Source of the DNA: Candidatus Omnitrophota bacterium
GTDB lineage: Bacteria; Omnitrophota; Omnitrophia; Omnitrophales; Aquincolibacteriaceae
Assembly (NCBI GenBank): GCA_003140935.1
Contig: PLLJ01000025.1
Span: forward strand, 1-41,105
Length of the DNA stretch: 41,105 nt
Direction: 5' to 3'
Part shown: in pieces, positions 13,493-41,105 of the stretch
How the letters are laid out: each line of letters opens with the position of its first letter
Numbering within the stretch: the first letter of the stretch is position 1
The notes under the pieces: model-generated
The model's input: only the letters and a program-made list of their open reading frames with translations
Database searches by the model: none
Told to the model about the DNA's origin: nothing
Position numbers and translations under genes: made by a program

Positions 13493-14281
13493 ATGCTTAT
13501 TACGGTCATTGCCGTTGTCATCGCGCTCGGGTATTTTTTTTATCCCTTCAAACTCGCCGGGCTGAGGTCATTGCTCAAGTATCTCGCAGGGATCTTCTGC
13601 TTTTGGGCCGCACTTTTTTTTGCCGTTCCTTCCCTGGATGTTTCCTTTGTCTACCGGGCCGGGATCGTGCTTCTCATCATCGCAGGCGGACTGCTTTGTA
13701 CGGATATATTGATCTCGGGCGCGCTGTGGCTTACCGAAAGAACAGGCAATATTTTCCGGAAAACACCCCAACTTCCGCATTATCTTCTTGAGATCTGGTC
13801 GGCCATGGAACGGATGGCGTCGCGCAAAGTAGGTGCTCTGATCATCCTCCAGCGCAAACACCCTCTTCGTCCGCACATGAAGGGGGGAATGTCCTTTGAT
13901 GCGGAGATCAAATCCGAGATTCTTGTGCCGCTTTTTTTGACTTCATCGCCCGTTCATGACGGCGCACTGGTGGTCTATAAAGGTCGCATACAGACTGTCA
14001 AGGGGATCCTGCCTCTCGCATCGCTTTCCGATCTTTCGCCGAGTTTCGGCACACGCCACCGCGCGGCGATCGGGATCACGGAAAAAACAGACGCGATCGC
14101 GCTCGTCGTCTCCGAAGAACGCGGCCAGATCAGTGTGGCCTATCGGGGTTGTCTGGTCCACATTGCCGACCGTGCGGAATTTCTAAAGACCCTGCAATGG
14201 GTACTCAAAGGCCGGAACATCCTTCGCCTCAAGAACGCGAGTTTCATTGTCACGACCAAAGTGCTGGATGATCTGACGTGA
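13493..14281 (+). CDS. cdaA: Diadenylate cyclase, CdaA type (c-di-AMP synthesis)
   Basis: 262 residues. Two or three N-terminal membrane helices (about residues 3-80) are followed by a DAC domain. The catalytic motifs are intact: HDGA near residue 156 and GTRHRAA near 188, followed by VVSEERGQISVAYRG, as in active CdaA/DisA enzymes that join two ATP molecules into c-di-AMP. The membrane anchor and length match CdaA rather than DisA. The ATG has a good AAGGAGAG ribosome site. Its stop overlaps the glpK start (GTGA), so the second-messenger enzyme is translationally coupled to glycerol kinase. The usual partners cdaR and glmM are not adjacent. Confidence 0.92.
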   Translation: MLITVIAVVIALGYFFYPFKLAGLRSLLKYLAGIFCFWAALFFAVPSLDVSFVYRAGIVLLIIAGGLLCTDILISGALWLTERTGNIFRKTPQLPHYLLEIWSAMERMASRKVGALIILQRKHPLRPHMKGGMSFDAEIKSEILVPLFLTSSPVHDGALVVYKGRIQTVKGILPLASLSDLSPSFGTRHRAAIGITEKTDAIALVVSEERGQISVAYRGCLVHIADRAEFLKTLQWVLKGRNILRLKNASFIVTTKVLDDLT

Positions 14282-25047: not shown

Positions 25048-25809
25048 ATGATCGATGTCCAGAATCTGACGATGAAATACGGTAGTTTTGTGGCTTTGGA
25101 CCGCATCTCTTTCCAGATGCAGGAAGGGGAGATCCTGGGTCTTTTGGGGCCCAACGGTGCGGGAAAGACCACCGCGATGAGGATCCTGACGACCTACCTT
25201 TGTCCCTCCTCCGGGACCGCCAAGATCGATCAATTCGATATTCTTCAAAATCCCATCGAAGTCCGGAAACAAATCGGTTATTTACCGGAGACTGCACCGC
25301 TTTATTCGGATATGCAGGTGGACGAGTATATCGCTTTTGTCGGGAACGCCCGAAAGATGAAGGGCAAACTCCTCGAGGACCGGACGAATTGGGTCAAGGA
25401 TGTATGTGGCATCAAAGAGGTCTGGAAGCACACGATCTCCGAACTTTCCAAAGGATACCGGCAGCGCGTCGGGTTGGCGCAAGCCCTGATCCACGATCCC
25501 AAGGTCCTGATCCTGGACGAACCCACATCGGGGCTGGACCCGCTTCAGATCATCGATATCCGTGAATTGATCAAAGGGTTGGCCCGGAAAAAGACCATCA
25601 TCTTCTCCACGCACATTCTCCAGGAAGTTGAGGCCATGGCCGACCGGATCGTTATTATTAATGAAGGGAAGATCGTGGCCCAGGGGACCCAGGCGGAGTT
25701 GACGGAGCAGGTCCGGAAACGGGGAGAATCCAAAACGGCGGAGACCCTGGAGGATGTTTTTATCGCTTTCTTAAGATCAAAGAGAGGGGCTAAAAAGCCG
25801 GCGCTATGA
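25048..25809 (+). CDS. ABC transporter ATP-binding protein, GldA-like
   Basis: 253 residues. Walker A GPNGAGKTT near residue 36, Q-loop IGYLPETAPLY, signature LSKGYRQRVGLAQALIHDP, Walker B VLILDEPTSGLDP and the switch STHIL are all intact, so this is an active ATPase. The family is the DrrA/CcmA-type with closest resemblance to GldA of the gliding-motility ABC exporter. Its stop overlaps the ATG of the permease gene (ATGA at 25806), so the two are one transporter. Despite the Gld name, such operons are widespread in non-gliding bacteria. Confidence 0.92.
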   Translation: MIDVQNLTMKYGSFVALDRISFQMQEGEILGLLGPNGAGKTTAMRILTTYLCPSSGTAKIDQFDILQNPIEVRKQIGYLPETAPLYSDMQVDEYIAFVGNARKMKGKLLEDRTNWVKDVCGIKEVWKHTISELSKGYRQRVGLAQALIHDPKVLILDEPTSGLDPLQIIDIRELIKGLARKKTIIFSTHILQEVEAMADRIVIINEGKIVAQGTQAELTEQVRKRGESKTAETLEDVFIAFLRSKRGAKKPAL

Positions 25810-28301
25810 TCAATTTCGGGGACCTTTTCACGATCTTTAAGCGGGAGAACAAAGCCTATTTCAACTCTCCGATCGCTTATATCTTTATCATTGTCTTCGT
25901 TCTTCTTGGAAACGGGCTTTTCATGACGCAGTTCTTCATCGCCGGCCGGGCCGATATGCGTCCGTTCTTCGGAACACTTCCCCTGATCCTGGCGGTTTTT
26001 CTTCCTGCGGTGACCATGCGGCTTTGGGCCGAGGAAAAGAAGGGGAACACGATGGAGCTTCTGCTGACCTTTCCTATGCGAACCCATGAGCTTGTGCTGG
26101 GGAAATTCGTTGCAAGCCTGGTCTTCTATTTTGTGGCATTGGCGTCGACCGTCATGATCCCGGTCATGCTCTTTTTTCTCGGAAAACCGGACCTCGGGGC
26201 CATGGCAAGCGCCTATATGGGAGCGGTCTTCCTCGGCGCGTTTTTTCTTGCCATAGGCATTTTTGTTTCGGGGATCGTCCGGGACCAAATCATCGCTTTC
26301 ATTTTGTCCATGATGGTCTGCTTTTCTCTTTATGTGGTCGGAACGGGATTTTTTGCTTCTGCCGTGGACGGCTGGGTCCCGGGGATGGGTTCTTTTTTGA
26401 GGAATTTTCTGGGAGTGACGCGCCACTTTGATTCTTTTGCCAGAGGGGTCGTGGACAACCGGGATGTCGTTTATTTCATGCTCGGATCGGCCATTTTTCT
26501 TACGCTGAACGGCTTTTGGCTGGAAGGACGCATGCGGCCCAAGGCAAAGGCCATTTTCACGACGGCGGCGCTGGTGTGCGCCGGGATCTTTTTGACAGCG
26601 AACTGGTTGCTGGCCGAGATCCCGCTCGGCCGTTTTGATATGACCCAAGGGCAGATCTATACGATCTCGCCATGGACGGAAAAACTTTTACAGGGGTTAA
26701 AAGCTCCCGTGACCGCGAAACTTTATATTTCTCCCTCCGAAAAAATGCCGACCGCATTGAAACCTTTGGAGCAGGAAATCGTGGACAAGCTGGATGAATT
26801 CCGCATCGCCGCGAAAGGAAAATTCCAATACAAGATCTTCCACATGGAGGCCGCAAACGTAACGGCGGAGGGCAAGCAGAAAGAGGATTCGCTGGAACAG
26901 CAACTTTCGGAGAAGGGGATCAAGCCTTTCCAGGTCCAGTCCATCCAGGCGGACGAGGTCGGAATGAATCTGGTCTACTCCGCCCTCAGCCTGGCTTATA
27001 AAGAAAAGCCCGAAGAGATCATCGGCCGCGTCATTCCCGACAACATTGCCGAGCTCGAGTATCTCATCATCTCGAGGATCTATCGCATGATGCTTCCCGA
27101 GCCTCCCCAGGTCGCGCTTATGGCGCCTTATAAAGAAAAGGAAATGGAGCCGGAGCTTAAACCTCTTGTGGACAAAATGGGCGGGAAGATCCCGGAAGGA
27201 TATAAGGAAGACAACTATGAGCTGCTGCCTATGGCGCTCGGCTATGCGGGATACAAGACTTCCCGGATCAAACTGACGGAGAAAGAGCCCATTCCGGAAA
27301 AGACGAAGACCTTGATCGTGGTCGATCCCAACAAGCTTGAAGAGCGGCAACGTTATGAGATCGACCGGTTCCTTGCGGGCGGGGGTTCTCTCTTTCTTGC
27401 CGTTCAGAACTACGAATATAACTATACGATATCAGGCAAAGAACTGACGGTCGGGGCTACGGAGAAAAGGCCCCAGATCAATCCTCTGATCGCAGGGTGG
27501 GGGTTCGAAGTGGACGATCAGATCCTGGTCGATGAGCAGAACGATGTTGTGAACGTCAGCGGTGCCGCGCGGCTTGGCCCTTATGAACTCTCCGTGCCCG
27601 TCAAGATCCCGATCCAGATCCTGGTGAACCAGACCGGTATGAATCCGGATGTTTCGATCACCTCGCGTCTTTCGCCGCTCTTTTATTTATGGGGGACGCG
27701 GTTGAAGTTGAATGATGCCAAGATCAAGTCCCAGGGGTTGAAAGTAGAAACGTTGCTTACATCGAGCAGGGATTCCTGGACGGTGCCTTTTAAATCCGAA
27801 AACCTGACCCCCAAAGACCTGAACCCTTTGGCGGATAGCCCTCACGGTCCTTTTCCTTTAGCGGTCATGGCGCAAGGGCTCTTTCAGGATCTTTACGCGG
27901 AAAAGCAGGTTCCTGCCTGGCCGCAATCGGCACCCGCAGGAACGGATTCCAAAGCGATCGAAACCCCTGAGCCTCAACCTCTCGAACCGCATCAGGGAAA
28001 AATGATCCTGATGGGGGCATCGTCCTTTTTTCAGAAACATCTGCTTCGCAACGGCGGCCATTTGACTTTTTTTCTGAATTGCGTGGATGCCCTGACGCTT
28101 GGGGATGAACTTGTCAGGATCCGTTCGAAGCAGCCCATTGAAAGAACGATCGATAGGATTTCTTCCGCCGCTAAAGTGATATGGCGTTTTGTGGTGACCC
28201 TTTTGGTTCCCATCGTCATCGCCTTTATCGGGATGATTAGAGGGATCTGGCGGAGGCGCTCGAAGCAAGCCTATCTGAAAATGCTGGCGCTTGTTGAATA
28301 G
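25806..28301 (+). CDS. ABC-2 permease fused to a GldG-type auxiliary domain
   Basis: 831 residues, a natural fusion of GldF and GldG. Residues 1-240 form six membrane helices of an ABC-2 permease, including AEEKKGNTMELLLTFPMRTHELVLGKF, the family signature. After another helix (about 253-272) comes the GldG extracytoplasmic domain: RFDMTQGQIYTISPWTEKLL, KLYISPSEKMP, IISRIYRMM, and LIVVDPNKLEERQRYEIDRFLAGGGSLFLAV. A final helix near 795-815 has a basic cytoplasmic tail. It works with the ATPase before it; the substrate is unknown, though a surface polymer or lipid is suspected. The following DUF4340 gene completes the usual three-gene set. Confidence 0.9.
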   Translation: MINFGDLFTIFKRENKAYFNSPIAYIFIIVFVLLGNGLFMTQFFIAGRADMRPFFGTLPLILAVFLPAVTMRLWAEEKKGNTMELLLTFPMRTHELVLGKFVASLVFYFVALASTVMIPVMLFFLGKPDLGAMASAYMGAVFLGAFFLAIGIFVSGIVRDQIIAFILSMMVCFSLYVVGTGFFASAVDGWVPGMGSFLRNFLGVTRHFDSFARGVVDNRDVVYFMLGSAIFLTLNGFWLEGRMRPKAKAIFTTAALVCAGIFLTANWLLAEIPLGRFDMTQGQIYTISPWTEKLLQGLKAPVTAKLYISPSEKMPTALKPLEQEIVDKLDEFRIAAKGKFQYKIFHMEAANVTAEGKQKEDSLEQQLSEKGIKPFQVQSIQADEVGMNLVYSALSLAYKEKPEEIIGRVIPDNIAELEYLIISRIYRMMLPEPPQVALMAPYKEKEMEPELKPLVDKMGGKIPEGYKEDNYELLPMALGYAGYKTSRIKLTEKEPIPEKTKTLIVVDPNKLEERQRYEIDRFLAGGGSLFLAVQNYEYNYTISGKELTVGATEKRPQINPLIAGWGFEVDDQILVDEQNDVVNVSGAARLGPYELSVPVKIPIQILVNQTGMNPDVSITSRLSPLFYLWGTRLKLNDAKIKSQGLKVETLLTSSRDSWTVPFKSENLTPKDLNPLADSPHGPFPLAVMAQGLFQDLYAEKQVPAWPQSAPAGTDSKAIETPEPQPLEPHQGKMILMGASSFFQKHLLRNGGHLTFFLNCVDALTLGDELVRIRSKQPIERTIDRISSAAKVIWRFVVTLLVPIVIAFIGMIRGIWRRRSKQAYLKMLALVE

Positions 28302-28322
28302 GGAAAAGAAAGAAGGCGCGAC

Positions 28323-29714
28323 GTGAAACTGAAACATCTTGTGATCTTTGGAGTTCTCCTTGCTCTGTTGGCCCTGGCTGTCGTCTTGAAGCAGCATCAG
28401 AAACCCGCCGAATTGACCACGGAAGAATACGTTCCCCTGAACCTTTCCTTTGACAGCGCCAAGGTTGCCCGGATCGAGATCGGAAAAGGGAAAAACCCGA
28501 AAGCTGTTGAGATCAAGAAAAACGAAGCCGGGGTCTGGGTCCTTCCGACGTTTTTTGGCGCCCGCGCGGATGAGAAAAAGATCCAGGACCTTTTCAAAGC
28601 CATCCCCGAAGCGAAAGGAGAACTCCGCGCCAAGGACAAGGCGCTTTTCGCGGATTTCGGACTCACGGAAGATAAAGCTTATCGGATCGGGTTTCTGGAT
28701 GGGGCAGGGAAACCCGTCTTCACGTTACTCCTCGGGCCTAAGATACCGCAGTATGCCTCCGTTTTTTTGAGAAAAGCGGATTCCGATCAGGTCTTTTACG
28801 CGGGGGCGGATCTTTTCGGCAGGATCGGGATTTATGATGACCCCGAGAAATCCTCGCCTAAAAGCGATACTTGGGCAAGTTTGATCCTGGCGGACCCGAA
28901 GTCGGACCAAGTGGATGAACTTGAGATCCAGCGTTCTACCGGAGGCAAGAAAATGACGGTCAGTCACGTACGCCGCGAGACCGATCCGAACGATCTTTCG
29001 AAAAAATGGTGGAAATACGAACGCGCGGGAGTGCCGTTCGCGCCGGATGCCGCCAAGATCAAACAATTTTTCAAAGTTCTTGGGACGAGCCCAGCCTCCA
29101 AGGCGCTGGATCCCAAAGCAAAAGATTATGGTTTTTCCGCGTCCAAGTGGCAGATGAAACTTCATCAAGACAATGGACAGGAGGTCCTTATCACGGCGGG
29201 CGCCGAAGATCCCGCGACGCAGGGGATTTTTATACAGGTCTCGAACGAACCTGTGGTGTTCTTGCTTCCGAAATATTACTTCAATAACCTTGACGTCGAT
29301 GACAGTAAATTCTTCGGTGAAAATCCTCTGGCGATCGATACCGAAAAGATCGAGAAGATCTTCGTTCACGCTCCGTCCGGAGAGGTCGCTTTTTCTCCGA
29401 AGACCGATAAGCGGGATGCCGTGAACCGTTATGTGAATAATTTAAAAGGGCTGCTTGTTTCCAAGCTTGTTTTTGATCCCTCGGCCAAGATCCAATCCAA
29501 ATCGGGGCAATTGAACTGGATCGAGATCAAAAAAGAAGGAGTTCCGGAAACTTTCTTTTTGGACGTCGAAGGAACGCCGTCCGGAGGAGGGAAGGAATAT
29601 CTGGCGGGGAAGCGGGACGGCACGCAACTTTTCCTAATTTCCGAGAGCTCCTTTAAAAATCTTTTCGGGGACTTGCGATCCCTTGAACCTCCTCCTGAGC
29701 CCGCAAAAACATAG
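28323..29714 (+). CDS. DUF4340 membrane-anchored protein
   Basis: 463 residues, GTG start with AGAAGG 6 nt before it. One N-terminal membrane helix (HLVIFGVLLALLALAVVLKQ) anchors a large extracytoplasmic domain with two similar halves. Each half has the DUF4340 pattern: V-A-R-I-E-I near 48 with GVWVLPTFFGARADEKKIQDL, and again KIEKIFVHAPSGEVAF near 345. The family nearly always follows GldA-GldFG genes, and is thought to be a periplasmic partner of that exporter. The gene ends 552 bp before the next gene; no strong terminator is seen. Confidence 0.88.
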   Translation: MKLKHLVIFGVLLALLALAVVLKQHQKPAELTTEEYVPLNLSFDSAKVARIEIGKGKNPKAVEIKKNEAGVWVLPTFFGARADEKKIQDLFKAIPEAKGELRAKDKALFADFGLTEDKAYRIGFLDGAGKPVFTLLLGPKIPQYASVFLRKADSDQVFYAGADLFGRIGIYDDPEKSSPKSDTWASLILADPKSDQVDELEIQRSTGGKKMTVSHVRRETDPNDLSKKWWKYERAGVPFAPDAAKIKQFFKVLGTSPASKALDPKAKDYGFSASKWQMKLHQDNGQEVLITAGAEDPATQGIFIQVSNEPVVFLLPKYYFNNLDVDDSKFFGENPLAIDTEKIEKIFVHAPSGEVAFSPKTDKRDAVNRYVNNLKGLLVSKLVFDPSAKIQSKSGQLNWIEIKKEGVPETFFLDVEGTPSGGGKEYLAGKRDGTQLFLISESSFKNLFGDLRSLEPPPEPAKT

Positions 29715-30014: not shown

Positions 30015-30098
30015 ACGATGGTGTAAAGAGCAAACCTGGAGTGATCCAGGGACGCAAAACCATGCATCCTTGAAAGGAATGGCAGGTTGCCACCAAAA
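30015..30098 (+). promoter_or_regulatory. Cyclic di-GMP-I (GEMM) riboswitch aptamer
   Basis: All the conserved blocks are present in order. P1 is formed by TGGTG (30019-30023) and CACCA (30091-30095). GAGCAAACC leads into P2, a perfect CCTGGA-GTGA-TCCAGG hairpin whose GTGA loop is a GNRA tetraloop. Then comes the nearly invariant GGGACGCAAA, then P3 (CATCC to GGAATG), then the conserved GGTTGCC. This matches the Vibrio Vc2-type c-di-GMP aptamer. An intrinsic terminator follows at 30144-30180 and the regulated operon starts at 30267. ON or OFF logic cannot be decided by eye. Confidence 0.88.
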
Positions 30099-30143
30099 TG
30101 GAAATGAGATTTGATAGTGGAAAAAAATTCGATCAAGCGAGAA

Positions 30144-30180
30144 GCCAGGTAAAGCCAAGCTTTTGCCTGGCATTTTTTTT
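30144..30180 (+). terminator. Intrinsic terminator in the riboswitch expression platform
   Basis: GCCAGGTAAAG pairs with CTTTTGCCTGGC, followed by eight Ts at 30173-30180. It lies between the c-di-GMP aptamer and the first gene, so c-di-GMP probably decides read-through. Its CCAGG/CCTGG arms share sequence with aptamer helix P2, so strands could exchange partners. Confidence 0.75.
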
Positions 30181-30191
30181 GTTTTTGGTCG

Positions 30192-30208
30192 AAAGTGCCA
30201 GGCACTTT
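30192..30208. repeat. REP-like perfect palindrome before the transposase-derived gene
   Basis: AAAGTGCC-A-GGCACTTT, 8-bp perfect arms. Its core TGCCAGGCA is the reverse complement of the TGCCTGGCA in the terminator just upstream. Such GC-core palindromes commonly flank RAYT genes and are their recognition sites, so this may be bound by the protein encoded downstream. Confidence 0.5.
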
Positions 30209-30266
30209 TACAATACAGCGGGCCCATTTGCTCCGGTGGCCGTGAGGATCAAAGGAGGCAGGCGCG

Positions 30267-31535
30267 ATGCCTAGATTTCCAAGGATCCATTTAGAAGACG
30301 CGGTTTACTCCATCCAGATGGAAGGCCCGTCCGGCGAATCTATTTATAAAGACGCCGAGGATTATCAAAAATATTCAAGCATCCTCTCCCAGGCCAAACA
30401 AGAATTCGGCTTTAAACTTTTTTCCTATGCTCTCTTGCCCGACCGCATTCATCTGCTGATCGAACCCACAGAAGAACATTCGGTCTCCCAGATCATGCAG
30501 AAGATCACGCCGAACTACACCAAATACTATAATAGTAAGTACGGCCGCAAAGGCCATCTCTTCCCCAAACGCTTCCGTTCAGTCTATGTCGAGCGTACTG
30601 CCTATCTCCCCAAGCTTACGCGTTTCATCCATCTTCTTCCGGAACGCAACGGCGTCGCCGCGAGTTTCCGCGATTATCCTTATACGAGCTACGCGGCTTA
30701 CACGGCGAACGCGAAGGCATCCGTTCCGGTCGATGCGGCCGAGGTCATGGGGTCGCTTGGGACGACTACGGTCGAAGATCCCTATGAGCGTTACATGCTT
30801 TCCGCGGACGAACACGAAACGGAATTTCTTGAAAAGAAATTATCCCGCGGCTCTTTCCTCGGTTCGGAGGAGTTCACGGCGAAGGTCCGCCGGGAGATCG
30901 CTTTGCAAGCCGCGAAAAAAGAACAGGAAGTGCCCGCGGAAGAAGTCCTTGCGGAAGCGCCGGTTCTTTCGAGCCCGGTTCCCACGGCATTCGTTTCCCA
31001 TGGCAGTTGGAAAATGCGGCCGGTCATTCTTTCGGGAGCACTCTTCGCCGCCGTTGCGTTCAGCGTTTTTTCCGTGACCCTGAACCATCCAACGCTTCAA
31101 GTCGCTCCGGCCTCTAAAGCGGTCCAAGCGCAGGTCGCTCCGGTCTCCAAAATGATCGCGCGCGCGACGCCGCGCACATTCAAGACCCCGATCGAAGGCA
31201 TGATCTGGGAAGTCGAGATCTACACGGTCACCAAAGACGGGAACGCGCAGCCCATCAAGGACAAGATCCGTTTCAACGGGAAATCTTTCGAATCTTATTA
31301 TTTTTCGAGCCAGGGCTTCAGCCCTTCGAATTACACAGTGAGGGTCCGTGAGAACGGGGCCATCACCTGGGAAACGATGCAGAGGAACCCTAAGGGTCAG
31401 ATCATCAGCTGGCGCGGGGACCTGGAAGGAGATCAAATGGCCGGCGTTATGAGTTTTCAGTCAAATAACAAAAACGCTCAGGATTTTTCTTTCATGAGCA
31501 AAAAAGCGACCGTAGGAGCAATGCAAAATGGATAA
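30267..31535 (+). CDS. Transposase-derived (RAYT/IS200-like) domain fused to membrane anchor and extracytoplasmic domain
   Basis: 422 residues with an AAAGGAGG ribosome site. Residues 1-145 are a REP-associated tyrosine-transposase (Y1_Tnp) fold: FKLFSYALLPDRIHLLIEP, GRKGHLFPKRFRSVYVE, RFIHLLPERNGVAASFRDYP. The HUH motif reads R60-I-H62, losing the first His, and the catalytic Tyr (Y115 of E. coli TnpA-REP) is F120. Residues 165-215 keep the family's tail (DPYERYM, FLGSEEFTAKV). A membrane helix follows at about 252-272, then an extracytoplasmic beta-rich domain (IEGMIWEVEIYTVTKDGNAQ to SFQSNNK) like calycin-type small domains. So the catalytic centre is dead but DNA binding may persist, as in ToxR-like membrane regulators. 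Its end overlaps the next ATG by 8 bp. Function inferred. Confidence 0.8.
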   Translation: MPRFPRIHLEDAVYSIQMEGPSGESIYKDAEDYQKYSSILSQAKQEFGFKLFSYALLPDRIHLLIEPTEEHSVSQIMQKITPNYTKYYNSKYGRKGHLFPKRFRSVYVERTAYLPKLTRFIHLLPERNGVAASFRDYPYTSYAAYTANAKASVPVDAAEVMGSLGTTTVEDPYERYMLSADEHETEFLEKKLSRGSFLGSEEFTAKVRREIALQAAKKEQEVPAEEVLAEAPVLSSPVPTAFVSHGSWKMRPVILSGALFAAVAFSVFSVTLNHPTLQVAPASKAVQAQVAPVSKMIARATPRTFKTPIEGMIWEVEIYTVTKDGNAQPIKDKIRFNGKSFESYYFSSQGFSPSNYTVRVRENGAITWETMQRNPKGQIISWRGDLEGDQMAGVMSFQSNNKNAQDFSFMSKKATVGAMQNG

Positions 31536-32235
31536 ACGAAAGCATATTCTTTTAGGAGTTGGTTTGATCGCACTTACCGTGGTCTTTTACCCGGTGGTTC
31601 TTTGGGCCGCGACCGATGCCTCGGATACCACAGGCAGCACTTCCAACGAACCTTCGACCGCGTTGAGTCGATCGATTGAGGCTGGTAAAGCGGTGTCGAA
31701 ACGCGCGCTTTCCAGTAAGGCCAAGGAGGCGGACGCGGAGGCAGTGCAGACAAAGCCAACAAAGATTGAAAAAACAGAACCCACGGCTTTTCAAAAAAAA
31801 ATGGCGGCCATCGCACAAGGGGAAACGTCCAGTACGGAGAACACCCTTTCCGATTTTGCGACCCAGGCCTCACCCGCCGTAAAAAATGCGTCTACCGTCA
31901 AAAAAACTGATGCTGTAAAAAAAGCAGATGCCACAAAAGATCAGGAGGCCGAGGCGGAGAAAATTCCGATGGCTGAGATGACGACAAAGGGGACCGTCAC
32001 GGGCGTCAGCCCTCAGGGGTTTGCTTTGGAATATGGCATTGATAAAAAAGCCGGAAGCATGGAAATTTGGTTCAATTACAACGATGGCATAAAGTTTTCC
32101 GGCATGGGAAGCGCCGGGGAACTCGGAGAAGGCGACACGGTGTTCGTGGTCTATGACCAGGCGCCGAATAAGGTCCGGATCGTCAAGGAAATGACGCTTC
32201 TTAAGAAAAAACCGAAAGAAACAGAAGGAATGTAA
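31528..32235 (+). CDS. Exported Lys/Ala-rich protein with C-terminal OB-like domain
   Basis: 235 residues. MDKRKHILLGVGLIALTVVF is a signal peptide or membrane anchor, cut near LWA. Residues 30-150 are low-complexity, rich in Ala, Lys, Thr and Ser, and probably a flexible linker. The last 80 residues (TTKGTVTGVSPQGFALEYGI onward) form a compact beta domain resembling the exported protein at 12084-12401. AGGAG lies just before the ATG, which overlaps the previous gene. The stop is directly followed by the ATG of the giant protein, so all three are translated together. It could be a periplasmic chaperone or accessory of the giant protein, which is inference. Confidence 0.65.
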   Translation: MDKRKHILLGVGLIALTVVFYPVVLWAATDASDTTGSTSNEPSTALSRSIEAGKAVSKRALSSKAKEADAEAVQTKPTKIEKTEPTAFQKKMAAIAQGETSSTENTLSDFATQASPAVKNASTVKKTDAVKKADATKDQEAEAEKIPMAEMTTKGTVTGVSPQGFALEYGIDKKAGSMEIWFNYNDGIKFSGMGSAGELGEGDTVFVVYDQAPNKVRIVKEMTLLKKKPKETEGM

Positions 32236-35200
32236 ATGACCGGAGACGAAGGAATCAAAAACCGGAAGGCGGAAGGCGGAGGGCGAAAGGCGTCCGTTCT
32301 CGGACTTTTCGCGCTGATCGGGTTTTCCTTCATGCTTAACTTCTTCGTCCCTTCTGCCGAGGCGTCGCAGATCAAGCGCGTCATGCGCGGTACCGCCCAG
32401 TTCGATACGGTCGATGTGACGCAGTCCGTGACACTCCCCAATGAAGTGGATATGTCAAAATCCATCATTTTGATCACAAACACGGGCGTTGCAGCCAATG
32501 CCAATGATCAGAATTACTTTTTTACGGCCCAATTCGCGACCACCGGCAGCATCAACATCGACCGCGCGGGTGCTACGGTCGAAGCGAGCGTGGCTTGGGA
32601 AGTCATCGAGTTTGAAGACGGCGTTTCGGTTCAGCGCGGCGTTTCCAGTATGCAGTCGTCGGGGGCCGGCAGTTTAATAAAAACCATTTCCATCGCGAAC
32701 ATCGACAGGACGAAATCTGTCCCGATCGTCACGGTCCGCGCGGCCTATACCACCGCGAACCAGACGAATCAATTGCATCTGCTCCCCACGCTCCTCTCGG
32801 ACAACGGGACGCTACAACTTGAACGTAAAGTCGTTTCCGGAACCAAGGCGATCTCCATTGTCTGGCAGGTGATCACTTTTACGAAGGATGTGACGGTCCA
32901 AACAAATGCTTTTCTCATCCCGGCTGACTCGAACGGGGTCGATAACTATGATGAAGATTATGTGACCGCCGTCACCAATCCTCTTCTCTTCACTTATTTT
33001 GCGGGCGACACCGCGGTTGCCGGGGTCGACACTCAGGAATGGACCAGCGGTATCTACTGCGCCGCGAGCGCGGCGGGGGACTGCACGGGGGCTGCTTCCT
33101 ATCCCGCAGTGAGATTTTTCCGGTATAACAATGTCAATACCGTCGGTCACTCCGTCTACGGCCAATATTATCTTGTGGATTTTACCGATGACGCAAGTTT
33201 CGGCCAAGCGGGAAACACCACATGGGCCACGGGCGCTTCTAACCAGCTTACCATTGTTACGTTAGCCACCCGGACGATCGCGGCGCAGACCGCCAGCGTC
33301 AGCACCACCGGTATTACGGACACCACGCCGATCAGGATCCGGACGACGGCTAACCACGGATTCGCGACGAACGATGTGGTGACCATTAGCACAGCCGCCT
33401 ACGGCGGCCTGACGATCAATGGAACTTCCAATATCGGTATCACGAACACCGGTCCGATCAGGATCCGGACCACGGCCAATCACGGACTTTCGACCGGGGA
33501 TATTGTCACCATTTCCGGCACGACGACGGCGAATTACACGATCAACGGCACCACGAACACCGGTATCGCGAATTCCACTCCGATCAGGATCCAACTGACG
33601 GCCAACCATACTTTCAACACAGGCACCTATGTCACCATTTCCGGGTCTGCGATGACGACTTATACCATTGCCACGAAAGCGAATAACGGCATCGTGAACA
33701 CGACCCCGATCCGGCTGACACTCACGGCCAATCACCCTTATGCGACCAATGCCCAGGTCGTGATCAGCGGCGCCGGTATTGCGGCCCTGAACACAGTTTG
33801 GGGTGTCAATGCGGGGGCAGCCTGTCCGGCCCATGAGGGCTTAGCGACCCCGTGCGCCGCCAATCAAATAGAGTTACAGGGGAGTGTAGGGCTCGGCAAG
33901 GGCGGCGGCGGCAGCGTGGTGACGAATTTAAACAAAGATTATCAGATCAGAACAGGGGCATCCTGTCCAACCCATGACGGTTTACCGGCTACGTGTGCCG
34001 CCAATCAATTGGAGTTGCTTAACACTTACGCAAGCGGTCCGGACAACGGTGGAAACGTAGCGGCCCGTGTCAACGGGCGCTGGTATATCAAAACCACAGG
34101 GAACGCGACGGACTTTACTTTGGCGGATCCTGTCACTCAAGTGGATACCGTGGCAAGCGGCGTCGGCCTTGGCGGCTCGGTCACGGATGATGTTCCTACG
34201 GTGGTCAATAAAAGTTGGGCGATCAAAGCCGGGGCAGACTGTACCGCCCATGACACCTTGACGACCCCGTGTAGCGCCGCTGAATTTGAGTTGATCAACA
34301 GTACGAAAGCCGGTCCCGGAGGCGGCGGGACGGTGTCCGGTTCCACCCTTGCGGGTGTCAATAAACGCGCGGACGGCCAGACGATACGCATTAACACCAC
34401 CGCCAATCACGGACTTACCTCGGGAGATGTCGTCAATATTGATAATTGCGGGGATGTATCCCTTGACGGGGACTGGCCTGTCATCAATAACACGCTTACC
34501 TCCTTTTTCCTGGCCGGTTCGGATTCGGTCAATATTACCACGGATAACAGCGGTGGAACGGTGCAAAAGCCACAAGTAGGCTCCGCATTAACGGCGATCG
34601 TGCCCTCCAGGACCATCGATTGGATATCCACGCGCGCTCAAAGCGCTGCCGGTACTGCTAACCGCGGGGCCTACGCTCTGTCCATAGTCGGCTGGCTTCG
34701 TCACGACATAACGGCGCCTGACACCACCACGACGATCTATGAAACACTCCGCGGAATGGACGCCTCGACCGAGTCGAGCAAGAATATTTTTTATGTGACG
34801 GAACTCAGTCCGCTGACCCTAAAAACGCCGGACGGGGCTGAGACGGGCACTTTGGCGTGGGTCGTGGGGAGCACGTCTTATGTCACTTGGGTGAATTCCG
34901 CCGATGTGGCCGCCCATAACTGGGAGCTTCAGATGTCGACCAACAGCGGCGGTGCCTATGCGGATCTGACCACAGGCTGTATCAAACCTTCCGACCAATC
35001 GAATGTCGCGTGCACCAGCGCCGCGACCGGAATTCCGATAGATGCAGGGGAAGGGGTCCCAGGCAGAAGGACCGTAGGGTGGGTGGTCCCGGACAATATC
35101 GGGATCGCCACCAGGATCCGCATGGTCGATACGACTCTCTGCGCTCATGCCGCTTGTGCGGACAATACCACGAACAATAAACGGTACCGTGATTCATCCA

Positions 35201-38200
35201 ACGCTGACTTCGTGATCCGCGGGTCCATATCAAATATCGTTGCGTCCGACGCTGGCGGAGCCCTCAATGCTATCGGTGTCGGCGGTAATCCGCTCGGTGT
35301 TGGAAATACCGATCTCGCTCTGACTTGGTCTCATACGGGAAGTATCGGAACCGTTACTATTGAACTCTGTCCTACCGGAGATGCAGGTTGCACGGGTGCT
35401 GTGACGATCAAAACCGGCGTTTCAGGCACCGGCGGTGCTTGCAATGCCGCTTGTACGGCATGGACGGTTCCCAATAATGTGTCCACCACGGCCAAGATCC
35501 GTGTCCGTGAAACAGTGCCGCCCACAGGAACCACGGTTGCAGACGTGAGTCCTGTGTTCGAGATCCGGCCCAGGATCAACGTTCTAAAACCGGACGTAAG
35601 CTCTACATGGGTGCGCGGTCAAGGGCAGAGTCCGACGCCGACGAACGGCGTAATTCGGTGGTGCACGGCTGGAACGGTCGGCAACGTGGACATCAAGTAT
35701 TCCAGCGACGGCGGCAACACCTATTCAGACTTGGTGGCTCACCCAGACCAAGTGATTGCGAATACGGCGGGGGTGAGTGATGGGTTGGGCGCTCAAGGTT
35801 GCGGGGCGGCTGAAAACGCGTATCACTACAATTGGACGCTTCCGGGGAATCTTGTCGTGAGCGCGGGCAGTTCCATGATCAAGGTCGTCAAGAACGGGGA
35901 TACCCAAGAGCTTGTCATGAAAGAATCCGCTCTTTTTACCACCAAGGCTTCCGTTCAGTTGGATACCCCGGCGACCTCCACTGTTTTGCGGTACCAGCAA
36001 TCGACCCCTATTGCGTGGAGCAGTCCGGGCGGCGGATTGGGAACCGTGAAACTGATGTATTGCAACGGTTATGTGGCCAACGGCTGCCAAAATACTCCGG
36101 GAGACGCGGACTGGATCCAGATCACCGATCCGACATCCGCCACGAATTTGGCCTCGGGCGCTTCGCCATGGTCCTGGAATGTTCAGGCGCCCGTGGGTAC
36201 GGATGTGGGTCTTTTGGTCGCCGATATGACCAGCCCCACGCTCATTTGGCATAATCTCGGTCCCTACACGGTCAAGGCCTGGTTCAGCGTAGCGGAACCT
36301 CATTCGGGCGAGGTGCTTCGCATCGGTGGCGCGAAAACCATTTCCTGGACGGATCACGGCCAGGGCGCTCAGGATGTTTATATTTGCATCGATTCCAATA
36401 ATGATGGCGCTTGCGAGTACTATCTTGTCAATTCGGCGGGAGTGGTCCAGGCGAGTACCCAGCAATACAGCGATTGGTCTCCTCCGAACGGCGGAGCGAC
36501 GGTCCTCAAAGATGATATTCCGCGATGCGCTTCCTGCCGTGTCCGTGTGTATAAACCCGGCGACGATCCGGTCGACCAGACGGGAACTTTCGGAAAATCG
36601 GACCTTTTCTCGATCAAGGGGAATATCACCGGCGCCGCGATCGGAGGCACGGGACCTTACCTGGTCGGACAGAGCGTCACGGTTTCGTGGACTTCCGCAC
36701 CCAACACCAACTGGACCACGGTGCGTCTGAGTTATTCTAAGAACGGGACCACTTGGACGGATTTCGCATCCTCCGGGTCAGGATGCACGACGACGATGGC
36801 GGCCAATACGGGCTCCTGCAGTTGGACGGTTCCTAACGACGTGAACATCGTTTCGGAAGGCGCTTCAAGGATCCGGGTCCAGGACGATGCGGACGCCACG
36901 AATACAAGTTCCACGTCGAATCTTTACACGGTGAGGGCCACTTTGGCGCTCGGTGCGCTGACGGGATCCCCTTGGAAGATCGGCACGGCCCATGATATTT
37001 CCTGGACCAAGACCGGAGACACCGCGATCACGACGGTCAACCTCAAGTATTCGCTTAACGGAGGCACGAGCTACGACTATTTGATCAAATCCCTGGGCGC
37101 CGGGCTGAGTCCTTATACCTGGTGCGTCGGGAAAAATGACGGTTGCAGCGGGACCACGCAGGGCCAGAACGCGAACGATCCTCTTTTGGTGATCGGGGCG
37201 GCTGACAAAAATGTGACGGTCAAGATCATGATCGAAGATGCGAATAATACCAAGGCCAACGGCGGGACCTATAGCGAGTCTTCGAACATCACCATCCAAA
37301 AGGATTACTCGACGGTGAAGGTGGGAGGACTTTCAAGCGGCGCCGTTCTTTATGTCGGAGACTCCAATCCGGGCGGTTTGTCCGGGCCCGACAGCATCAC
37401 GTGGACGACACTTGGGGATTCGACGAGCAAAGTTTTCCTGGCGTATCAAACAAGCGGTTACACGTTTCCGACGAATAATATAGAAGACACGCCGGGCAAG
37501 AACGATGTCGGCGCCTACCATTTGTGGACCGTGCCTGACAGTATCGGAAATGCGGTAAAGATCCGGATCAAGAATGCCTCCTATCCCACGGACATCTATG
37601 CGGATTCCGGGACTTTTGTCATCAAAGGAAAGATCACGGCTTCGTTCCCGGACGGCAGTACGACTTTGGTGGTCGGAACGGACGTGACGGGCGGCATTCA
37701 ATATGTGAAATATGGAACTCTCGGGAACCTTGAGATCATTTACAATCATAACGGGTATACGACCGTGATCACGCCCGGCGCATCGCCTGGTCCCGAGGGA
37801 ACGAGCGCGGCGACCTCGTTCGCGTGGACGGTCGCGGCCACCGATTCCAATGGCGGGAATGTGATCGATACCAGCGGCACGAAGTACAGCAAGTTCAAGC
37901 TAACCGGCCTTACGGACAAAGGGAATACGGACCTTGAAGCCACGGTCGAAACGCCGCTTTTTCAGATCCGCGGTGATCTTTATGACGGCACGGATTCCAA
38001 ACTCCTCAAGGAGCCGGGAGGCGGGGAAGTTTACGCGATCGGCGGGACGACCCAATACATCCGGTGGAAAGCGCGCGGTAATCTCGGAAATCTGAAAATG
38101 AGTTTGGACACGAACGCAGGAAAGGGCGTCGATAATACCACCGACACCAGCGATGATTATACCACCTCGATCCGGCGGCCCGACAGCAAGTGCGGCACGC

Positions 38201-41105
38201 CGCCGTGCTACGCGTCATCGGTGCCGTATACCGGGGACGGGACGGACGGGCAAGGTTATTATTATCTTGAATGGATCGTTCCGAATCTCGTGACTTCCAA
38301 AGCGAGGATCCGCGTCGAGAGCATCGCCAACGCTTACGATTATACGAATCCGACCAAGGCCATGGCGACTTATGCCGCGACCAGCTCGAACAATTTCTGG
38401 ATCCGGCCGACCGTTACCGTGGTGTCTCCGAACGGGGTGCAGACGCCTCATTGGAAAACGGGTGAGACCGCGAAAACGATCACGGTCAATTCCACCGGCG
38501 ACGCGAAACTCGACGTTTGGGTTTGTTATAACAATGCCTCGGGCGCTTGGCCCGATTGCACGAGTAAATACGTGGTCACGTCCGCCCAGCAGGTGAGCGC
38601 GGGGAATACCAATCTCTCATGGGATGTCCCGGCTGGGTTCAGTACGGATAATGCCATTATCCATGCGCAGTGGACGGACCAGGCTACGATCTCGGATGAA
38701 TCGAATGCCATATTCATGATCAAACCTGTCCTCACTCTCACGAAACCTGTCGACAATACCACGCAATTTGTCGTCGGAGCCTCCACCTACTCATCGGCGA
38801 TCGCATGGAACGCACCGAATGGGACATCTCCTAACATCGATATTTTGCTTTCGACGGACGGAGGCGGCACTTATCCAGTCACGATCCAATCGAATTATCC
38901 TGTCGGGAACGGCAACGCCGACTGGACCCTCGATGAGACGACTTACAATTCCCTTATCACAAAAACGGCCAAGATCAAGATCCAAAAACACGGAGACACC
39001 AACGTTTTGAGCGAATCCACCCAGAGTTTTTACATCAAGGGCGCGTTTTCCAATGTTTATGTCAAAGTGAACGCCGGCGATGCGGATCCTTCGACTCCGA
39101 TCGATCTTCCGATCGCGACTACGCGCTACATCACCTGGGAATACACCGGGAACATGGGGACGGTCAACGTCTATTACGCCACGGATGCCGACCAGGCACC
39201 TCCGACCTGGCTCCCCGTCTCCGGGGCAGGGACGTGTGTAGGTAGTGTTTCCATTGGTTCAAGCGGGAGCGGCAACTGTACCTGGACGGTCCCCAACGCG
39301 CCTTCCGCGAACGTGAAAGTAAAGATCGCGAACGTCACCAACACCAATTGGCCGGACGTGAGCAATGTGAGCTCGGGACTTGCCAGTATCATCGGCAGCA
39401 TCTCTGACGTCTGTGTGTTGTCGGGCACGAATTGCGCGAGCGATAATGCGGGGGCTTCCATGGATGTCGCTGGCAGCAAGGTGATCCGTTGGAAGCCGAA
39501 CGGCGCTATATCACTTTTTGATATTGAATACCGCGTAGGGGGAGGAAGCTGGAGCGCGACGCCGATCACGGGAACCAATGGCGTGGCCGGGTCGGTGAAC
39601 GGAAATTACAAGGAATGGACCTGGACAAGTATCCCGGACACTATTTCCAATGACGTGGATTTCCGGGTCGAGGACCACAGTAACCCGAGCAAGGTGAGCT
39701 GTACCAGCGATGATGCGGGCTGCAATACTTCACGGTTCCAGCAGTCCGTCACCAATATTTACGGTTATATCCTCAAGGGCCAATTGAGCATTGTTTCTCC
39801 GATCGTGACGGATGTGCGTACGATCGGCTCGACGCCGAGCCCGTCGATCCGCTGGAGTAAATATGGAAGCATCGGGGACCTGAAGATCGAGTACTCGACG
39901 ACCGGCAGCTTCACGGCGCAGGATTACACGGACGGGAACGTGTTCATGATCGTGAACAATTATGCTTCAGGCAGCGACGGCAATAATGATTACGCATGGC
40001 AGACGGGTGTCATTGGCGCCAATCGCAAGATCTCGGATACGAGCGCGATCCGGATCACGAATTTGAGCGCCCCTGTGGGCACCGAGTTGGATAAGACGAG
40101 CGCTCTCTTCAAGATCCGCCCCTCGATCAATTCCCTGGACAATCCGACGGGTTCGACGGTTTGGTTCGCAACGGACACCGACACCGTGAATCAAACCATC
40201 AACTGGACGAATAATAGCGGCACGAAATCAGGAGGGGTGGCACCGACCTGTATCGTGGAGTATTCGACGAACGGAACGGATTATTACACCGTAACGGGCG
40301 GCACGGCCGTGGCTTGCGGCCAGGGGTCGCACAGCCTGACGTGGTCTCCGATGGCGGACTTGAGGAACGCGACGGTGCGCGTGCGTGTTTCCTATAATGA
40401 TTACCCCTCGATCAATCTGGAATCCGGCCAGTTCACGGTCCGTCCGAAAGTTGTGGTGACGCCGACTCCGGACGGGAGCACGAAATTGGCAGTGGGTCAG
40501 ACGTATAACAATCTGATCAAGTGGACTTATTCGGGGACTACGACCAACCACACAGTCGAGATCCGTTATGACACGGGAGCGAACACATTCCCCTCGAATC
40601 AGGTGATCGCGACGGGTGTTGCCGCGAACTTGGGCGCGACGGGTGTGACGTGGACGAATGTCCCTGACATCATCGGTTCGAATGTGAAGGTCCGGGTGTT
40701 CGATCTGGGTTTTACGGCCGCAGCAGGTGATTCCCCAGCCTTTACAGTCGTCGGAGGCATCATCTTCGGCTCTCCGCAAAGCAGTAGTACGAATGTGACG
40801 GCGAGTACGGCGATGGATATCAATTGGACTTATACCGGGACGACCCCGAACTTTGATATTTATTACAGTAAAGCGACGACCCCGAGCGCATTCCCGAGCT
40901 CGGACTGGACCCGCATCGCACAGAACGTGGGGTCGGGGACTTATTGCGCGGCAGGGAGTTGTACTTATAACTGGGCGGTCACGGGTCTGAATGATGATAC
41001 GGTGACGAACACGGCGGGTTTTTACGTGAACAACACTCTGGACTCGGCGAATTCACTTTATGCGTCAAGCCAGGGAACTCAGTTCAAGCGGGGTGCGGAT
41101 GTCAG
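32236..41105 (+). CDS. Giant repeat-rich exported surface protein (partial, runs off right edge)
   Basis: The frame is open for at least 2,956 residues with no stop. A basic leader (NRKAEGGGRKAS) and hydrophobic core end in PSAEA, a signal peptidase site. An N-terminal domain (about 45-345) is followed by four 42-residue repeats at exact 126-bp spacing, resembling the E1-FCCH-type fold (TANHGLSTGDIVTISG). Three Cys-pair, glycine-ended repeats (about 520-700) and one more FCCH-like copy come next. From about residue 860 come about 17 Ig-like units of 100-140 residues. Each has an I-x-W strand, a Y-S-x-D-G-G-type turn, W-x-V-P-D, then K-I-R-V and F-x-I-(K/R), as in Ser/Thr-rich Kre9/KNH-like domains. 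It is rich in Thr, Ser and Asn with few Lys. Likely a c-di-GMP-controlled adhesin; no anchor is visible. Confidence 0.85.
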   Translation, partial: MTGDEGIKNRKAEGGGRKASVLGLFALIGFSFMLNFFVPSAEASQIKRVMRGTAQFDTVDVTQSVTLPNEVDMSKSIILITNTGVAANANDQNYFFTAQFATTGSINIDRAGATVEASVAWEVIEFEDGVSVQRGVSSMQSSGAGSLIKTISIANIDRTKSVPIVTVRAAYTTANQTNQLHLLPTLLSDNGTLQLERKVVSGTKAISIVWQVITFTKDVTVQTNAFLIPADSNGVDNYDEDYVTAVTNPLLFTYFAGDTAVAGVDTQEWTSGIYCAASAAGDCTGAASYPAVRFFRYNNVNTVGHSVYGQYYLVDFTDDASFGQAGNTTWATGASNQLTIVTLATRTIAAQTASVSTTGITDTTPIRIRTTANHGFATNDVVTISTAAYGGLTINGTSNIGITNTGPIRIRTTANHGLSTGDIVTISGTTTANYTINGTTNTGIANSTPIRIQLTANHTFNTGTYVTISGSAMTTYTIATKANNGIVNTTPIRLTLTANHPYATNAQVVISGAGIAALNTVWGVNAGAACPAHEGLATPCAANQIELQGSVGLGKGGGGSVVTNLNKDYQIRTGASCPTHDGLPATCAANQLELLNTYASGPDNGGNVAARVNGRWYIKTTGNATDFTLADPVTQVDTVASGVGLGGSVTDDVPTVVNKSWAIKAGADCTAHDTLTTPCSAAEFELINSTKAGPGGGGTVSGSTLAGVNKRADGQTIRINTTANHGLTSGDVVNIDNCGDVSLDGDWPVINNTLTSFFLAGSDSVNITTDNSGGTVQKPQVGSALTAIVPSRTIDWISTRAQSAAGTANRGAYALSIVGWLRHDITAPDTTTTIYETLRGMDASTESSKNIFYVTELSPLTLKTPDGAETGTLAWVVGSTSYVTWVNSADVAAHNWELQMSTNSGGAYADLTTGCIKPSDQSNVACTSAATGIPIDAGEGVPGRRTVGWVVPDNIGIATRIRMVDTTLCAHAACADNTTNNKRYRDSSNADFVIRGSISNIVASDAGGALNAIGVGGNPLGVGNTDLALTWSHTGSIGTVTIELCPTGDAGCTGAVTIKTGVSGTGGACNAACTAWTVPNNVSTTAKIRVRETVPPTGTTVADVSPVFEIRPRINVLKPDVSSTWVRGQGQSPTPTNGVIRWCTAGTVGNVDIKYSSDGGNTYSDLVAHPDQVIANTAGVSDGLGAQGCGAAENAYHYNWTLPGNLVVSAGSSMIKVVKNGDTQELVMKESALFTTKASVQLDTPATSTVLRYQQSTPIAWSSPGGGLGTVKLMYCNGYVANGCQNTPGDADWIQITDPTSATNLASGASPWSWNVQAPVGTDVGLLVADMTSPTLIWHNLGPYTVKAWFSVAEPHSGEVLRIGGAKTISWTDHGQGAQDVYICIDSNNDGACEYYLVNSAGVVQASTQQYSDWSPPNGGATVLKDDIPRCASCRVRVYKPGDDPVDQTGTFGKSDLFSIKGNITGAAIGGTGPYLVGQSVTVSWTSAPNTNWTTVRLSYSKNGTTWTDFASSGSGCTTTMAANTGSCSWTVPNDVNIVSEGASRIRVQDDADATNTSSTSNLYTVRATLALGALTGSPWKIGTAHDISWTKTGDTAITTVNLKYSLNGGTSYDYLIKSLGAGLSPYTWCVGKNDGCSGTTQGQNANDPLLVIGAADKNVTVKIMIEDANNTKANGGTYSESSNITIQKDYSTVKVGGLSSGAVLYVGDSNPGGLSGPDSITWTTLGDSTSKVFLAYQTSGYTFPTNNIEDTPGKNDVGAYHLWTVPDSIGNAVKIRIKNASYPTDIYADSGTFVIKGKITASFPDGSTTLVVGTDVTGGIQYVKYGTLGNLEIIYNHNGYTTVITPGASPGPEGTSAATSFAWTVAATDSNGGNVIDTSGTKYSKFKLTGLTDKGNTDLEATVETPLFQIRGDLYDGTDSKLLKEPGGGEVYAIGGTTQYIRWKARGNLGNLKMSLDTNAGKGVDNTTDTSDDYTTSIRRPDSKCGTPPCYASSVPYTGDGTDGQGYYYLEWIVPNLVTSKARIRVESIANAYDYTNPTKAMATYAATSSNNFWIRPTVTVVSPNGVQTPHWKTGETAKTITVNSTGDAKLDVWVCYNNASGAWPDCTSKYVVTSAQQVSAGNTNLSWDVPAGFSTDNAIIHAQWTDQATISDESNAIFMIKPVLTLTKPVDNTTQFVVGASTYSSAIAWNAPNGTSPNIDILLSTDGGGTYPVTIQSNYPVGNGNADWTLDETTYNSLITKTAKIKIQKHGDTNVLSESTQSFYIKGAFSNVYVKVNAGDADPSTPIDLPIATTRYITWEYTGNMGTVNVYYATDADQAPPTWLPVSGAGTCVGSVSIGSSGSGNCTWTVPNAPSANVKVKIANVTNTNWPDVSNVSSGLASIIGSISDVCVLSGTNCASDNAGASMDVAGSKVIRWKPNGAISLFDIEYRVGGGSWSATPITGTNGVAGSVNGNYKEWTWTSIPDTISNDVDFRVEDHSNPSKVSCTSDDAGCNTSRFQQSVTNIYGYILKGQLSIVSPIVTDVRTIGSTPSPSIRWSKYGSIGDLKIEYSTTGSFTAQDYTDGNVFMIVNNYASGSDGNNDYAWQTGVIGANRKISDTSAIRITNLSAPVGTELDKTSALFKIRPSINSLDNPTGSTVWFATDTDTVNQTINWTNNSGTKSGGVAPTCIVEYSTNGTDYYTVTGGTAVACGQGSHSLTWSPMADLRNATVRVRVSYNDYPSINLESGQFTVRPKVVVTPTPDGSTKLAVGQTYNNLIKWTYSGTTTNHTVEIRYDTGANTFPSNQVIATGVAANLGATGVTWTNVPDIIGSNVKVRVFDLGFTAAAGDSPAFTVVGGIIFGSPQSSSTNVTASTAMDINWTYTGTTPNFDIYYSKATTPSAFPSSDWTRIAQNVGSGTYCAAGSCTYNWAVTGLNDDTVTNTAGFYVNNTLDSANSLYASSQGTQFKRGADV
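33310..33813 (+). repeat. Four tandem 126-bp repeats inside the giant gene
   Basis: The repeated GI(T/A/V)N(T/S) start occurs at 33310, 33436, 33562 and 33688, exactly 126 bp apart. At the DNA level CCGATCAGGATCCG recurs in the first units and degrades to CCGATCCGGCTG in the fourth, as expected of a decaying tandem duplication. A related, unlinked copy begins near 34381. Confidence 0.85.
34815..41105 (+). repeat. Array of about 17 Ig-like domain repeats in the giant gene
   Basis: Unit borders, marked by F-x-I-(R/K) or equivalents, lie near 35213, 35560, 35940, 36268, 36610, 36925, 37290, 37615, 37966, 38395, 38712, 39030, 39385, 39766, 40110, 40434 and 40741. Units are 102-143 residues long and differ strongly in DNA sequence, so this is an old array rather than a recent expansion. 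Confidence 0.7.

Follow-up and report, generated by a model that had tools for sequence, protein, structure and literature searches.

The analyzed DNA of Candidatus Omnitrophota (41,105 nt, referred to here as the window) contains an operon which we consider, with a probability of roughly 0.6, to be a conserved attachment locus of this phylum, combining a cyclic-dinucleotide riboswitch, an exapted RAYT that binds an element of its own leader, and a giant secreted protein. The control system looks real and so far undescribed, and it probably serves cell attachment. Dozens of genera share this arrangement and its leader motif, which are found beside pilus genes. In the mechanism that we propose, (i) a GEMM-I riboswitch would sense a second messenger and an intrinsic terminator would decide on read-through into the operon, (ii) the product of gene 1 would be an exapted RAYT, with its Y1 domain in the cytoplasm, one transmembrane (TM) helix as an anchor and a further domain in the periplasm, (iii) this protein most likely binds AAAGTGCCAGGCA in its own leader, as a DNA or RNA hairpin, which would adjust the expression of the operon or hold the giant mRNA at the membrane, and (iv) the giant secreted repeat protein, encoded beside the type IV pilus/F-type ATPase machinery, probably works together with it.

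A GEMM-I aptamer with a GNRA tetraloop had been postulated at this site in the sequence-only reading, and a covariance-model scan bore this out. Using cmscan, we obtained a significant match to RF01051 (GEMM-I; c-di-GMP-I) at positions 30019-30094 of the forward strand (55.6 bits, E 2.4e-8; the Rfam gathering cut-off is 35 bits), with an intact core and a P1b loop of the sequence GUGA. The same aptamer scored 60.5 bits with our own covariance model R1. It is the single match to RF01051 in the whole 2.4 Mb genome. The aptamer carries AAAGAGCAAACC, in which a position comparison with Vc2 places an A, not the G typical of c-di-GMP aptamers, at the equivalent of G20 (G20A). GEMM-I aptamers with G20A bind 3′,3′-cGAMP (PMC6274999). 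The genome also encodes an FHA-GGDEF protein of the Hypr type (G000:C53:1525-2025; signature GHLVGS); of the GGDEF proteins examined in this genome, it is the single one that has Ser at the position of the Hypr signature. Related GGDEF proteins of the genomes G027, G010 and G030 have Asp, not Ser, at this position, and no Ser-type GGDEF was found among the loci examined in G249, the other genome with a clear A20. Since the A20 aptamer and the Ser-type GGDEF occur in one genome, which is suggestive, the ligand in the window may be 3′,3′-cGAMP instead of c-di-GMP. Most other aptamers of the operon family have G20 where the position is readable, and the operon of the window may represent a change of second-messenger specificity within the lineage (G20 to A20). 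Another cyclic dinucleotide system of the window is a DisA-type diadenylate cyclase with a DAC domain (13493-14281). Elsewhere in the Omnitrophota, GEMM-I aptamers were seen in tandem (G018:C30:12759 and 12872; G011:C257), and the genome G048 contains 15 copies.

A homologue search in 384 genomes of the phylum yielded about 45 near-full-length members of the gene 1 family. All 45 loci examined have a GEMM-I match, which in 43 of them precedes gene 1 by 91-804 nt in the same orientation; in the other two, G174 and G229, the aptamer does not precede this gene. The covariance model used here, built from 34 aptamers of the phylum (4 of them from the gene 1 family), matches 45/45 loci, with five weak matches of 22-28 bits. 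Outside this set, 17 of 19 further named contigs also have an aptamer match, and L205, one of the two contigs without it, falls outside the gene 1 family in the tree. Twenty further RAYT genes from the phylum served as controls and have no strong aptamer beside them, and none lies directly upstream of the RAYT gene in 31 outgroup loci. Comparison with relatives further revealed that the genes stay together, as had been anticipated: wherever the contig of one of the 45 loci extends far enough, gene 1 is followed by the giant ORF, with or without the small exported gene in between, and a few loci have extra genes inserted. Almost all full-length members in the named scan are from Candidatus Omnitrophota, the exceptions being one contig with a Planctomycetales label and one with a Lokiarchaeota label, both possibly misbinned; the latter (L204, MBAA01000064.1) carries a family member together with an aptamer and is likely a misbinned Omnitrophota sequence. 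The distribution of the operon is patchy, since neither a full-length gene 1 nor an aptamer match was found in the congeners G001-G005. Several relatives have, inside or just before the operon, an MNT-like nucleotidyltransferase gene accompanied by another small gene that resembles HEPN genes by eye, e.g. the loci of G143, G249 and G121 (L117, L127 and L146, respectively).

The terminator predicted earlier behind the aptamer was also confirmed. A pattern scan combined with folding located it at positions 30144-30180 of the forward strand, with the stem at 30144-30171 and a tail of eight T residues, and an intrinsic terminator is present in 43/43 leaders that have the aptamer upstream of gene 1. 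It is the presumed expression platform, through which the riboswitch would switch the operon. A duplex permutation test detected no locus-specific pairing of the aptamer with a terminator arm of the kind that an antiterminator would form (p 0.52), and single-sequence folding of the leader gave mixed results in this respect, so that the sign of the switch is not predictable from either approach.

Gene 1 (30267-31535, forward strand) encodes a protein of 422 aa, whose similarity to transposases is confined to the N-terminus (Pfam Y1_Tnp, PF01797; E 4e-10). Its AF2 model (pLDDT 83) consists of a Y1 fold (residues 1-220), a TM helix (251-273) and a C-terminal beta-barrel (313-413), and the best Foldseek match is 4ER8, a RAYT bound to a REP hairpin. 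The match, the helix and the fold together support the claim of the sequence-only reading that the first gene of the operon encodes a transposase-derived membrane protein. The Y1 domain is expected to be cytoplasmic and the C-terminal domain periplasmic. Alignments revealed that the catalytic motifs are mutated in the window (HUH to RIH, and the catalytic Tyr to Phe). Loss of catalytic residues was observed in 26/45 members of the family, compared with 1/20 control RAYTs (Fisher p 4e-5); it is not universal, as the HUH motif and Tyr are both intact in 19/45 members (19/20 in the other RAYTs of the phylum). The family forms a single clade in the tree (support 100/99) and all of its members have a TM segment. 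These comparisons show an ex-transposase family in which, judging from the aligned sequences, the catalytic residues have been lost repeatedly and the fold has been kept.

Just 3′ of the terminator, usually about 3-13 nt past the last T-run, lies the conserved element AAAGTGCCAGGCA (in the window at 30192-30208, forward strand), which in the window is located inside the palindrome AAAGTGCCAGGCACTTT and is proposed to be the operator of the gene 1 protein. It is present without mismatches in 23/43 leaders and with ≤2 mismatches in 40/43, compared with 0.6% (≤2 mismatches) for dinucleotide-shuffled leaders. Exact copies of AAAGTGCCAGGCA number 32 in 31 genomes: 29 of these lie between the aptamer and gene 1, a 30th (in G071) is placed just 5′ of the aptamer, and the remaining two (in G072 and G315) were discounted, being located in unrelated coding genes without an aptamer. 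The element is not conserved around control RAYT genes, and the core of the palindrome occurs only once in the 2.4 Mb genome of the window. Its variant CCACG accompanies 6/6 proteins without the C-terminal domain (type B) and 0/37 proteins that carry it (type A), an association reflecting few events, since five of the six type B proteins are near relatives in the tree. In the target sites of RAYTs, a short hairpin is preceded on its 5′ side by a guide tetranucleotide (PMC6006769). The leader element is likewise composed of a tetranucleotide and a hairpin, its tetranucleotide being AAAG where RAYT sites have GT[AG]G.

We infer binding of the gene 1 protein to AAAGTGCCAGGCA from the fold of the protein, the single-copy nature of the site and the difference of the site between protein subtypes; the element would then amount to a REP-like site present in one copy, next to the gene of a RAYT-derived protein. 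The feedback role that the sequence-only reading had ascribed to the first gene is plausible to this extent, given that in 43 genomes the leader of this RAYT-derived gene contains a dedicated REP-like element, and it depends on the predicted binding. It is possible, and we propose it tentatively, that the former transposase now acts as a regulator anchored in the membrane, which reads a private REP-like hairpin, present in one copy in the leader of its own operon, and couples events in the envelope to the expression or placement of the mRNA of the giant protein. Two other identities of the palindrome were rejected: (i) a sigma-54 site (TGGCAC), a reading for which by inspection neither the spacing nor a TTGC box is present and which the variants of type B do not match, and (ii) an ordinary REP of another RAYT, as the genome has no other RAYT match and the palindrome is in one copy.

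Three further explanations of gene 1 and its element were considered. The riboswitch might control a giant adhesin whose operon also encodes, as gene 1, a protein needed for the structure or assembly of the pilus or secretion apparatus, with the Y1 domain kept as a scaffold without any function on nucleic acids and the element serving some other factor. The frequent loss of catalytic residues and the presence of stand-alone paralogues of the C-terminal domain beside secretin and TPR genes (in the genome of the window, such a free-standing paralogue is located in the secretin cluster) fit this explanation, which we nevertheless regard as rather unlikely, because the element is a specific feature of gene 1 family leaders, adjoins the RAYT-derived gene, has the form of a RAYT site and differs with the protein subtype. 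Less probable still is a protein-free RNA switch, in which the element re-pairs with the 3′ arm of the terminator after read-through. Visual comparison shows TGCCTGGCA and TGCCAGGCA of the window to be complementary, and a crude test found complementarity of at least 6 nt between the element and this arm in 13/43 leaders, a proportion that led us to discard such pairing as a universal feature; moreover, the terminator stem varies among the loci while the element is fixed, and the element is transcribed only after the termination decision. Finally, a RAYT element may by chance have acquired the promoter of an adhesin operon, the flanking palindrome being a functionless relic. The RAYT-like N-terminal domain and the members with intact HUH and Tyr would agree with such an origin, but the conservation observed here already speaks against it, as do the single deep clade, the position fixed across many families of the phylum, the TM segment common to all members and a genome without multi-copy REPs, and we consider it highly improbable.

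The downstream part of the operon agrees with the earlier description of three overlapping or abutting genes, the giant one being the last. Gene 2 (31528-32235, forward strand) overlaps gene 1 by 8 nt and encodes a small exported protein without a Pfam match, whose C-terminal domain contains the conserved motif GxVxGxxxxxxxxxY...GDxVxVxY. By inspection, a similar protein is encoded at the equivalent place in most type A loci. The giant ORF (32236-41105, forward strand) begins right after the stop codon of gene 2 and is still open at 41103, the contig (C43) ending at 41105, so that 2956 aa are available. As indicated by the ORF, the alignment of N-termini and the repeats, the protein comprises an N-terminal signal anchor and a 'QIKRV..G' domain, followed by Ig/Kre9-like repeats. 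A fold search with the N-terminal domain (model pLDDT 65) gave no match under 0.001. Complete giant proteins of relatives have 4,111-10,669 aa. In the same genome, contig C52 starts within a giant ORF, the repeats of which resemble those of the window; there is no overlap between the contig ends, and C43 probably joins C52, which would bring the protein to at least about 6,150 aa. The signal anchor, the Ig/Kre9-like repeats and the neighboring genes suggest a surface adhesin.

The giant ORF of C52 is followed by genes for F-ATPase subunits, PilB and PilC. The same succession was found in all six other genomes whose retrieved sequence extends far enough past the giant ORF (G057, G182, G199, G224, G242 and G279); the contig of G160 ends 2.4 kb past this ORF, with no marker gene. 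Upstream of the riboswitch, many genomes contain genes for a secretin, TPR proteins and paralogues of the gene 1 C-terminal domain. This type IV pilus neighborhood fits the surface or attachment role previously assigned to the giant protein, a putative adhesin. PilB contains an MshEN domain in 6/6 examined cases, and also a PilZ domain in G000 and G199; a PilB with both domains is encoded at L239:14715-16895. MshEN domains are widespread among pilus ATPases, and some copies do not bind c-di-GMP. Because PilB carries MshEN/PilZ, a cyclic dinucleotide may act on the pilus motor as well. Just upstream of the riboswitch, the window contains, at 25048-29714, ABC-2 type transporter genes and an ABC_transp_aux/DUF4340 pair, which, by resemblance only, may constitute a gliding-type or export module.

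Several components of the locus have counterparts in known systems. Giant ORFs and the co-location of F-ATPase and type IVa pilus genes have been described in the Omnitrophota (Seymour et al. 2023, PMC10066038), where adhesion was proposed for the giant proteins, which are characterized as poorly understood; in a term search, that paper was found to mention neither riboswitches nor c-di-GMP nor transposases. The 'symbiotic' F-type ATPase/type-4a pilus loci of that study are from the same phylum and have the same types of neighbor genes as the operon of the window, a likeness at the level of gene content, which for the window also involves the probable C43-C52 join. Here, in contrast, the giant ORF, the ATPase and the pilus genes form one locus with its control region.

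With the RAYT/TnpA-REP systems (PMC6006769; PDB 4ER8), gene 1 shares the fold and a nearby short palindrome placed after a conserved tetranucleotide; it differs in that the protein of the window lacks the catalytic residues and has a TM anchor and a periplasmic domain, and in that the genome has a single-copy site instead of dispersed REPs. The family exemplifies a transposase that has repeatedly lost catalysis and retained its fold and a nearby cognate-like site. The GEMM-Ib riboswitches for 3′,3′-cGAMP and the Hypr GGDEF proteins of Geobacter (PMC8835794, PMC6274999) likewise combine A20 with a Ser-type GGDEF, but most relatives of the operon have G20, and the genome of the window has one GEMM-I aptamer, not many. 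As in the cap gene of Bacillus thuringiensis (PMC4933901) and in Clostridioides difficile (PMC6200980), where GEMM-I controls adhesins or pili, the riboswitch of the window is located 5′ of genes with a probable surface or attachment function. In the locus described here, unlike in those systems, the first gene codes for a membrane protein derived from a transposase and has a REP-like element of its own in the leader, and the operon leads to a giant protein in an uncultured phylum, which brings giant proteins, their control element, the pilus/ATPase neighbors and a domesticated transposase together as one unit that can be tested across the phylum.
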